From NCBI RefSeq assembly GCF_023369855.1, contig NZ_JAMBPP010000004.1, positions 62,001-126,000 on the forward strand: 64,000 nt of DNA, written 5' to 3'. Every line of letters begins with the position of its first letter. Position 1 is the first letter of the stretch. Under the pieces are notes generated by a model, which saw nothing but the letters and a program-made list of their open reading frames with translations, searched no databases and was not told the DNA's origin. A program made the position numbers and the translations under genes. Of the stretch, positions 42,693-44,446 are shown piece by piece. The stretch comes from Actinotalea alkalitolerans. Its GTDB lineage: Bacteria > Actinomycetota > Actinomycetes > Actinomycetales > Cellulomonadaceae.

Positions 42693-42704
42693 GAACACAG
42701 GACA

Positions 42705-42743
42705 CCCGGTCTCCCGCACCCGAGGGAGGTGCCGGAGACCGGG
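42705..42743. terminator. Hairpin terminator between GH3 remnant and tipA-like gene
   Basis: Bases 42705-42720 pair with 42728-42743 with one mismatch and a seven-base loop. It lies between the plus-strand GH3 remnant and the minus-strand MerR-type gene, so it can end both units. Confidence 0.7.
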
Positions 42744-42788
42744 CCCTTCCACCACGCCGCAGCCGTGCGACGCCGTGCGAGGTCGTCC

Positions 42789-43211
42789 TCAGGGTCGATC
42801 GGCGGCCGCGAGCCGGTGGGTCGCGAAGTGGTCGATCGCCTCGCACAGGTACGCCGCGAGCCCGGGGGCGTAGGCGTCGTAGGTCGCGGTGAACCGCGGG
42901 TCGTCGACGTACATCCGGCCCAGACCGCGGTAGGACTCGGCGTCGGGCGTCCAGAACAGGGCGATCTGGGCGTGATGACGCTCGAGTAGCCCCTGGACCC
43001 GGGTGTCCTCGACCGGGACCCGCGCGGCCATGAGCGCGGCGAGGCCTCGGCCGATCTCGGCCGACTCCTCGTGGAAGGCGCTCTGGCCGTCGTGGCCCAT
43101 CCGCTCCCACGCCGCCGTGCTGCGGTCCACGGCCGTGGTGCCCCAGCGCTCGCGCGCCTCGGTGTCGTACTGGCTGTTGTCGAACCCTGCGTAGAGGTCC
43201 TTCGCTGCCAT
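42789..43211 (-). CDS. Internal start giving a TipAS-like drug-binding protein
   Basis: Within the tipA-like gene, ATG at 43211 has a strong purine-rich ribosome-binding site (GAAGGGGGG on the minus strand, plus-strand 43217-43226). Translation from it yields 140 residues, the TipAS domain without the DNA-binding part; Streptomyces TipAS is 144 residues long. In that system the short form is made in excess and traps the drug. The internal start is inferred from sequence only. Confidence 0.55.
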   Translation of the reverse strand: MAAKDLYAGFDNSQYDTEARERWGTTAVDRSTAAWERMGHDGQSAFHEESAEIGRGLAALMAARVPVEDTRVQGLLERHHAQIALFWTPDAESYRGLGRMYVDDPRFTATYDAYAPGLAAYLCEAIDHFATHRLAAADRP

Positions 43212-43610
43212 GTCGTGCCCCCCTTCCAGGGACTCAAGGGTGCGGGCGACGGTCCTGGCGAGACGGTCGAAGCGGTCCCGCTCGGCCACCAGACGGGCAT
43301 GGTGCTCGCGCAGGACCGCGGCCCGGTGCGCTGCAGCACCCTGGGCCCCGTTCGGCGCGGTCGCCGCCGCGTCGAGGATCTCGGCGATCGTGCTCAGCGG
43401 GACGTCGAGCTCCCGCAGCACCAGGACCTGCTGCAGCCGCAGCAGCTCCTCGTGGCCGTAGAGCCGTCGTCCTCCCGCGGCGACGCCGAGCGGGACGAGC
43501 AGCCCGATCGCGTCGTAGTGCCGCAGGGTGCGTGAGGTGACTCCCGAGAGCCGGGACACCTCGTCGATCGCCCAGGTCCGGGTCGGTCGGTGCACCAGGT
43601 CCTCGACCAT
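42789..43610 (-). CDS. tipA: TipAL-like MerR regulator with TipAS drug-binding domain
   Basis: The 273-residue protein has an N-terminal MerR winged helix ('IDEVSRLSGVTSRTLRHYD', residues 14-32), a dimerising coiled coil (about 85-130) and a C-terminal TipAS domain (134-273; 'YAGFDNSQYDTEARERWG'). In Streptomyces, TipAL binds thiopeptide and related antibiotics and activates its own promoter, and the C-terminal half is also made alone. Here residue 134 is a Met whose ATG (43211) has GAAGGGGGG six bases upstream, so a 140-residue TipAS-like protein can be made from inside the gene. ATG start at 43610 with GAGGT upstream. Confidence 0.9.
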   Translation of the reverse strand: MVEDLVHRPTRTWAIDEVSRLSGVTSRTLRHYDAIGLLVPLGVAAGGRRLYGHEELLRLQQVLVLRELDVPLSTIAEILDAAATAPNGAQGAAAHRAAVLREHHARLVAERDRFDRLARTVARTLESLEGGHDMAAKDLYAGFDNSQYDTEARERWGTTAVDRSTAAWERMGHDGQSAFHEESAEIGRGLAALMAARVPVEDTRVQGLLERHHAQIALFWTPDAESYRGLGRMYVDDPRFTATYDAYAPGLAAYLCEAIDHFATHRLAAADRP

Positions 43611-43663
43611 GTGACCTCACCTCCGTGCCTGCCGACGGCGGGCCTTCCGCCGTCGTCGTGCAC

Positions 43664-43692
43664 GCTAGAAGATGACGTTACGTCAACTGCAA
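43664..43692 (-). promoter_or_regulatory. Candidate promoter/operator of the tipA-like gene
   Basis: TGACGTTACGTCA (43673-43685) is a 13-base palindrome with a central T. On the minus strand it overlaps TTGACG as a -35 element. MerR-type regulators bind palindromes within their own promoters, so this is a likely site for the TipAL-like protein. The -10 element is not clear. Confidence 0.45.
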
Positions 43693-43777
43693 GCCCGGGG
43701 GATCACGCACCGCTCTCGGGTCCGCAGGACGCGCCGGCCCGCTCGTGGATGTCCTCCCGGGGTGCCACAGTGAGGGC

Positions 43778-44446
43778 ATGAGCGACCTCTTGCGCGACTC
43801 CGAGGTGACCGACGCCCTGGACCCCCGCCACTGGCGGGTGGTGCTGGGCAGGGTGCACGGCACCTTCCGCACCGGTACCTTCACCTGCGGCCTCGAGCTC
43901 ACCCAGCGGGTCGCCGAGGTCGCCGAGGCCCTCAACCACCACCCCGACGTCGACCTGCGGTACGGCTCGGTCCACCTCTCGACCGTCTCGCACGACGTCG
44001 GAGGGCTGACCGGACGAGACGTGGCCCTGGCCGGGGCCGTGTCGGCGGTGGTCGACGAGCTCGGCATCAAGGCGGACACGACTGCTCCCCAGGCGCTCGA
44101 GGTCGCGATCGACGCCCTGGACATCCCCGCGGTGGTCCCGTTCTGGCGCGCCGTGCTGGGTTACGCCGAGGAGGTCCCGGTCGCCGAGGACTCCTCACCG
44201 GCGCTGGTCGACCCGGCGGGGATCGGGCCGGCGCTCTGGTTCCAGCAGATGGATGCGCCGCGTCCGCAGCGCAACCGGATCCATCTGGACGTGTCGGTCC
44301 CGCACGACGTCGCCGAGCAGCGGGTCGCCGCCGCGGTCGCGGCGGGTGGCACCCTGGTCAGCGACGAGCGCGCCCCGGCCTTCTGGGTGCTTGCCGACGT
44401 CGAGGGGAACGAGGCCTGCGTGTGCACCTGGCAGGCCCGCGACTGA
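43778..44446 (+). CDS. Pterin-4a-carbinolamine dehydratase fused to a VOC domain
   Basis: The 222-residue protein joins two folds. Residues 1-95 are pterin-4a-carbinolamine dehydratase (PCD/DCoH), with the catalytic pattern His54-His55-Pro, His72 and Asp81 ('LNHHPDVDLRYGSVHL', 'SHDVGGLTGRD'). Residues 105-222 form a glyoxalase/VOC (vicinal oxygen chelate) domain ('DIPAVVPFWRAVLGY', 'RNRIHLDVSVP'). PCD recycles 4a-hydroxytetrahydropterin made by aromatic amino acid hydroxylases. No hydroxylase gene is nearby, so the role is open. ATG at 43778 is chosen since the PCD domain begins there; a CACAGT element lies six bases upstream. Confidence 0.88.
   Translation: MSDLLRDSEVTDALDPRHWRVVLGRVHGTFRTGTFTCGLELTQRVAEVAEALNHHPDVDLRYGSVHLSTVSHDVGGLTGRDVALAGAVSAVVDELGIKADTTAPQALEVAIDALDIPAVVPFWRAVLGYAEEVPVAEDSSPALVDPAGIGPALWFQQMDAPRPQRNRIHLDVSVPHDVAEQRVAAAVAAGGTLVSDERAPAFWVLADVEGNEACVCTWQARD

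Follow-up and report, generated by a model that had tools for sequence, protein, structure and literature searches.

The locus considered here raises the question of whether a bacterial regulatory gene is translated from two starts, one giving a transcription factor and the other a free copy of its own ligand-binding domain. The window (the whole 64,000-nucleotide stretch of Actinotalea alkalitolerans DNA that was analysed, and to which positions refer) carries a tipA-like gene on the minus strand (42789–43610), in a frame that opens with an ATG at 43610, closes with a stop codon ending at 42789 and encodes a full-length product, ‘TipAL’, of 273 residues. By Pfam, this protein has the N-terminal MerR helix–turn–helix and C-terminal TipAS domain of TipA-class MerR regulators. 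The MerR_1 DNA-binding domain (PF13411, 58 bits, above cut-off) covers residues 15–81 (43368–43568, minus strand) and the TipAS antibiotic-recognition domain (PF07739, 116–118 bits, above cut-off) residues 148–262 (42825–43169, minus strand); a MerR-DNA-bind match at residues 58–120 lies below the Pfam cut-off, and an NCBIfam search returned sub-threshold matches only. No other gene of the source genome matches TipAS. Among proteins of known structure, the best match to the full-length protein is Caulobacter SkgA (7cla, 145.8 bits), followed by the MerR-like regulator 3qao (105.6 bits), while the TipAS/TipA structures of Streptomyces lividans (1ny9, 2mbz, 2vz4) match at 58–59 bits. The nearest named relatives are in Actinotalea sp. 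C106 and Cellulomonas cellasea, with 76% and 70% identity, respectively, over the best segment.

Between the MerR part and the Pfam TipAS domain lies an in-frame ATG, encoding residue 134 (43209–43211, minus strand). It is preceded by an internal Shine-Dalgarno (SD)-like run, GAAGGGGGG (43218–43226, minus strand), from which it is separated by six bases, CACGAC. Allowing one G-U pair, seven contiguous bases can pair with the 16S tail at an aligned spacing of 7, as compared with four at every one of the gene's three remaining internal ATGs and eight at its first start, the SD of which is GGAGGTGA (43617–43624, minus strand). Initiation at Met134 would yield a free TipAS protein of 140 residues (42789–43211, minus strand), predicted from the reading frame and its conservation. 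Thus, at the level of sequence, a second in-frame start with its own ribosome-binding site stands at the domain boundary. The original prediction of a TipA-like gene with such a site holds up in these terms, with small corrections as to strand (minus) and first ATG (43610); the boundary position of ATG 43211 and the length of its product were as predicted. The exact SD match at the internal site is only 4 nt (AAGG), so that it falls below a strict threshold of five exact nucleotides, as do 10 of the 18 genes of the ‘family’ group. Synonymous recoding of this one site gave no significant departure (p 0.38), because Leu-Glu-Gly-Gly already encodes the purine run. Above-chance evidence for the putative internal start is therefore that of the comparison with homologues.

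In its MerR and TipAS domains, its in-frame second start ahead of TipAS and the promoter in front of its own gene, the locus resembles S. lividans tipA. It differs in that the internal Met is 9, not 13, residues before a conserved Phe, and in that its linker reads LEGGHDM rather than MEA-x-x-M, the pattern of the classical class, to which S. lividans TipA belongs, judging by the solved TipAS sequence. SkgA and 3qao (which we take to be Listeria Lmo0526) both have a Met at the same place as the window protein. In the alignment with the solved proteins, the cysteine-bearing stretch of S. lividans TipAS aligns to FWTPDAESYRGL, where there is no counterpart cysteine; the only Cys of the window protein is residue 256, and a cysteine that would bond covalently to thiopeptides is thus lacking. 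Of the S. lividans-style drug trap that had been proposed, the two-start arrangement stands, and a thiopeptide trap cannot be assumed.

For S. lividans TipA, two products are stated in the available parts of PMC7762955 and PMC2893106, the first of which describes TipAS as the predominant form, sequestering and neutralizing thiopeptides; in the text seen of PMC7762955, the two-isoform statement is confined to S. lividans and does not extend to the related regulators SkgA, 3qao and Mta. Klebsiella oxytoca AlbA is likewise described as a self-regulatory sponge with two translation products and a 19-bp spacer promoter (PMC10189885, in part); such a promoter is also present here, where the two products are predicted. 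Unlike the window protein, AlbA has a tandem TipAS-like arrangement as its ligand domain, which binds albicidin (PMC6078987, in part). The two-product device is therefore already known from TipA and AlbA, and the tipA-like gene adds a member. The main text of a Caulobacter ribosome-profiling paper (PMC4117421), as far as available, does not mention SkgA; by its count, no more than 24.6% of Caulobacter genes have an SD. In the portion of the open-licence literature covered, we found no earlier report of a family-wide internal start conserved at the nucleotide level.

Homologues were gathered at 291 loci, of which 249 carry full MerR+TipAS genes, or 202 after removal of those with at least 85% identity. 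The 42 loci dropped had no full MerR+TipAS frame by the cut used: 15 hold a MerR part (L017–L031) and 27 are truncated, broken, divergent or TipAS-only. A PF07739 search of 296 genomes of the source organism's own phylum contributed 110 of its 112 places, the two left out being the window itself and the second piece of one gene. Ten PF07739 places came from 299 genomes of the phylum of a Caulobacterales genome (Pseudomonadota), and for the Bacillota sample, drawn from 149 genomes of the phylum of a Virgibacillus, the 30 best-scoring of 62 places listed were used, a choice that favours canonical members. Phylum names were deduced from the titles of named records. Since PF07739 begins past the Met, sampling with it is blind to the internal site; a further 80 loci came from a contig search with six peptides, one of which spans the site.

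The start proved to be widely conserved. An orthologue at E ≤ 1e-60 was found in 30 of 221 family genomes, and a boundary in-frame ATG was present in all 30 (one of them, L137, being a partial match with a TGA). Among the 202 nonredundant genes, 176 have an in-frame ATG at the boundary. In the own-phylum sample of 83 nonredundant genes, 75 have a boundary ATG, GTG or TTG in frame, and 55 have one with an exact SD of at least 5 nt; the corresponding figures were 25 and 13 of 25 for the best-scoring Bacillota places, and 8 and 5 of 8 for Pseudomonadota. The claim that the device is kept outside Streptomyces is thereby supported by sequence evidence. The outcome that would have spoken against it, an internal site not shared by close homologues, was not what we found: the ATG was there in every family orthologue, preceded by codons that these genes seldom use elsewhere.

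An SD is associated with boundary ATGs in particular. In the 202 genes, 117 of 233 boundary ATGs have an exact SD of at least 5 nt before them, as compared with 75 of 900 other in-frame ATGs, and the difference persisted when the set was thinned to below 60% (47/90 versus 36/415), 50% (23/44 versus 17/224) or 45% identity (16/25 versus 12/157). For runs of at least six with one G-U pair, the counts were 98/233 and 37/900, and in the Cellulomonadaceae/Demequina group 15/34 and 0/61. By position, the genes fall into a classical class of 31, in which 13 residues separate the start from the conserved Phe downstream and the linker is mostly (M/L)EA-x-x-M with GGAGG, and a second class of 138, including the window gene, in which it is 9 or 8 residues before the Phe and linkers are mostly of the EGG/KGE type. 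Each class supplies the SD from different linker residues.

Codon choice at the site departs from the usage of the same genes elsewhere. In 32 own-genus and family genes, GAA accounted for 24/38 at the five codons before the start, as compared with 14/543 elsewhere; in 117 high-GC genes, GGA/GGG accounted for 95/125 versus 747/2105, and AGG/AGA/CGA for 30/44 versus 282/3093. In profiles aligned on the start, the five-codon window before it ranked first of 220 for A-ending codons in four groups, with z 17.7 in 24 Cellulomonadaceae/Demequina genes (35 observed, 3.5 expected), 10.7 in 31 genes of classical TipA type, 25.4 in the 61 remaining high-GC genes and 4.3 in 25 from Bacillota. These z-scores are descriptive, having been computed without a tree. 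In the recoding, codon-count and start-aligned profile tests, the candidate with the best SD was taken as the start, and several candidates were present in 89 of the 194 genes. Because picking a start for its SD is circular, the A-ending profile was redone, aligned blind on the conserved Phe. The boundary window again ranked first, of 230 (379 observed, 153.9 expected, z 22.5, all 202 genes), lying at codons −16 to −12 from the Phe or one to two codons later. It also ranked first of 230 in each of six subsets: Cellulomonadaceae/Demequina (z 17.4), genus (23.5), own-phylum sample (13.7), contig-search loci (12.0), Bacillota (4.6) and Pseudomonadota (3.9, eight genes). Away from the boundary, the best start-blind window reached 3.8 at most.

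Two other measures were less clear. A recoding null based on duplex energy gave p ≤ 0.05 in just 29 of 194 genes; it has little power, because Leu-Glu-Gly in common high-GC codons already spells GGAGG, and codon-choice profiles were used in its place. For pairwise synonymous identity, the Cellulomonadaceae/Demequina group shows no rise at the site (ranks 179–241 of 241), which there mixes GAA with GAG and GGA with GGG and GGC. The identity was fair in two groups, the genus (4–90 of 247) and the Arthrobacter-like genes (10–43 of 247), and high in Bacillota (1–4 and 39 of 251); classical TipA gave no ranking. Conservation of the purine run and ATG beyond coding expectation is therefore upheld by codon choice, and not by the recoding null or by synonymous identity in the Cellulomonadaceae/Demequina group. 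These last two results are what favours the view that the pattern reflects only amino-acid constraint on a flexible, charged linker (EGG/KGE plus Met). We regard that view as very improbable, given that codon choice at the site departs from each gene's own usage and that both linker types, built of different residues, carry an SD.

SD-like runs within coding sequence are often regarded as pause sites, and the position of the purine run between two domains would suit a ribosome pause for co-translational folding, with no start involved. Several observations make this very unlikely. A start codon lies downstream of the run at start-type spacing. Codon +1 is biased towards A-ending in the Cellulomonadaceae/Demequina group (11/24 versus 0.6 expected, z 13.5) and in other high-GC genes (18/61 versus 3.2, z 8.8), slightly so in classical TipA (6/31 versus 2.3, z 2.6) and not in Bacillota (3/25 versus 5.4, z −1.3); in high-GC genes, the second codon is A-ending after 33 of 105 boundary ATGs as compared with 4 of 400 other in-frame ATGs. 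When 40-nt stretches of the mRNA were folded, all four groups showed little structure around the start (z 1.82, 1.61, 1.86 and 1.23); in high-GC genes, the mean z is 1.83 for the 105 boundary ATGs and −0.03 for 404 in-frame ATGs elsewhere. A boundary start is absent from 8 of the 202 genes, or from 21 by a stricter count; these 21 show no structure dip (folding z 0.08), and an SD core is present at the boundary in 6 of them as compared with 133 of the 181 genes with a start. That GTG is the codon at all 10 boundary valines treated as starts is a weak argument, because they were selected as GTG. The A-ending second codon and the structure minimum at the predicted start fit initiation better than pausing.

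A free TipAS domain could also arise by transcription from an internal promoter, and the available text of PMC3048380 does call TipAS ‘independently transcribed’. The conserved signal, however, is a ribosome-binding site, and alternative in-frame translation products are described for tipA in the parts seen of PMC2893106 and PMC6078987; we consider an internal promoter most improbable. Taking these comparisons together, we think it highly probable that the internal start is used.

What such a product might do is suggested by the promoter. Upstream of the gene, on the minus strand, lie a −35 element, TTGCAG (43687–43692), a −10 element, TAGCGT (43662–43667), and between them a 19-bp spacer (43668–43686) with the dyad TTGACGTAACGTCA, a likely operator. 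The gene thus has before it, in sequence terms, the 19-bp-spacer promoter with central dyad of the TipA class. The TGAC-n-GTCA dyad recurs in 37 of 40 orthologue rows (some genes being counted twice, from two collections). In 19 genomes of the genus, a strict form of the promoter pattern, which would miss weaker sites, gave 15 matches and its reversed control none. For 14 of the 15 matches, a TipAS gene follows directly, at a distance of up to about 130 bases, and the remaining match, in the source genome, precedes a glyoxalase-superfamily gene; of the 15 TipAS genes, 14 have the promoter upstream and the fifteenth starts at a contig end. The four genomes with no full-length TipAS match had no promoter match, and 13 of the 14 genomes holding the pattern have a single match, right before the TipAS gene. 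By this pattern, the regulator would act almost solely on itself.

We propose, with considerable confidence, that the best explanation of the locus is a self-contained, autoregulated gene of the tipA type with two translation starts. The full-length MerR+TipAS protein would sit on its own 19-bp-spacer promoter, which would be switched on when a toxic ligand is bound by the TipAS domain. The induced mRNA would be read from both starts, the first giving more sensor and Met134 the free TipAS domain, which, having no DNA-binding part, would bind ligand, soak it up and damp the response. As the strict pattern leaves the regulator little but itself to switch on, free TipAS would be its natural output, and the internal start would explain the purpose of the circuit. 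That the second product is made, and that the protein acts on the promoter, binds drug and protects the cell, we infer. The free domain probably works as a ligand sink. A short protein that is made for regulation only, as a ligand buffer that sets the threshold, with no part in resistance, seems to us unlikely, but less so than the readings dismissed above. The promoter lies mostly before the gene itself, so that sink and feedback are hard to separate, and the cysteine of covalent capture has no counterpart here; against this, S. lividans TipAS is described as the predominant form, neutralizing thiopeptides (PMC7762955, in part).

A related arrangement appeared in a second family. MerR genes without TipAS, meant as a negative control (9 of 21 frames were long enough), failed as such: within a loose 40-codon window, a start with SD was found in 7 of 9, as compared with 66 of 83 own-phylum TipAS genes. 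Most of the long-enough control genes encode MerR with a GyrI-like domain (PF06445, BmrR type) and have an SD and start at the boundary. For the GyrI family, two sets of 30 loci each were taken, together with 40 further places from among those listed; 77 MerR-GyrI genes passed and were aligned, 65 of them nonredundant. In these 65, an SD of 4 nt or more precedes 28 of 30 boundary ATGs versus 50 of 207 others, and one of 5 nt or more 14 of 30 versus 14 of 207. Many of these regulators thus resemble the window gene in having SD and ATG between MerR and effector; they differ in the effector domain, which is unrelated to TipAS, and in that 26 of the 65 have no boundary start with an SD of at least 4 nt.

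The codon-choice signal follows this division. In the 28 genes picked for ATG and SD, near-boundary A-ending windows took the top places of 235, the best being codons −9 to −5 (z 8.0; folding z 1.36), and in 29 picked by ATG alone the top windows were kept (z 8.4). In the 26 genes lacking such a start, the best boundary rank was 24 and the folding z −0.11; 11 genes belong to neither class. The 36 genes with no ATG, some of which have GTG or TTG with an SD, retain a trace (rank 2, z 3.4). The MerR-GyrI gene of the source genome itself, L405, has GGAGGTCACACTC-ATG at the boundary, and a boundary SD-ATG is also found in L335, L321, L322, L329, L334, L349–L365 and others. All but a few of these genes come from a single class of bacteria, and the MerR-GyrI case is weaker than that for TipAS. 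According to PMC10414762, as far as available, the databases have separate entries for GyrI-like variants, short or two-domain, of the same protein; we found no earlier report of MerR-GyrI internal starts in the open-licence literature covered.

The occurrence of the same predicted second start in regulators of very different bacteria suggests that systems in which one gene both senses toxic compounds and sequesters them are widespread. We give an even chance to the broader proposal that internal initiation of a free sponge is a general, repeatedly evolved design of MerR multidrug regulators, ancient and common in MerR-TipAS across phyla and of separate origin in MerR-GyrI. If so, many bacterial ‘regulators’ would be one-gene inducible sequestration systems, and many annotated MerR regulators would also make an unannotated ligand-binding protein, the main product having been missed by annotation. 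This would bear on intrinsic antibiotic tolerance and on the use of MerR regulators as biosensors. In the MerR-GyrI regulators, the device would be seen to work with a different effector domain, and their start-less sister genes would serve as natural controls.

The neighbourhood of the gene and its relatives offered further observations. Divergent from it on the plus strand (43745–44446) is a gene encoding a pterin-4a-carbinolamine dehydratase domain fused to a Glyoxalase_6 domain. A second TipA-type promoter in the source genome (L292, G000:C11:140439–140469) precedes a glyoxalase/VOC-like (glyoxalase-superfamily) gene, the mRNA of which would have no leader; a gene with a MOSC domain is divergent from it. 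This copy is possibly a second target of the regulator. TipAS frames with no intact MerR part in the stretch available occur at L272 (G574), L179 and L267; at L272, a single codon separates the MerR frame from the TipAS frame, the two being in phase, and the SD-ATG is retained.

Near the predicted 5′ end of the window gene's mRNA is a 9-bp inverted repeat (43633–43655, minus strand), CGACGGCGG-5-CCGCCGTCG, which begins 6 nt past the −10 box and would form a hairpin if transcribed. Rfam has no match at gathering score in 42700–43800, and at zero mismatches the repeat occurs at one place in its own genome. A stem of at least 6 bp (G-U allowed) is present in 23 of 30 distinct orthologous leaders, and of at least 8 bp in 21, with paired changes in L118 and L131; the repeat may form a hairpin at the 5′ end of the mRNA or serve as a further operator. 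In four Demequina genes (L038, L039, L042 and L043), the promoter is so near the first ATG that mRNA for the long product would be leaderless, and the purine run before the internal ATG is retained.
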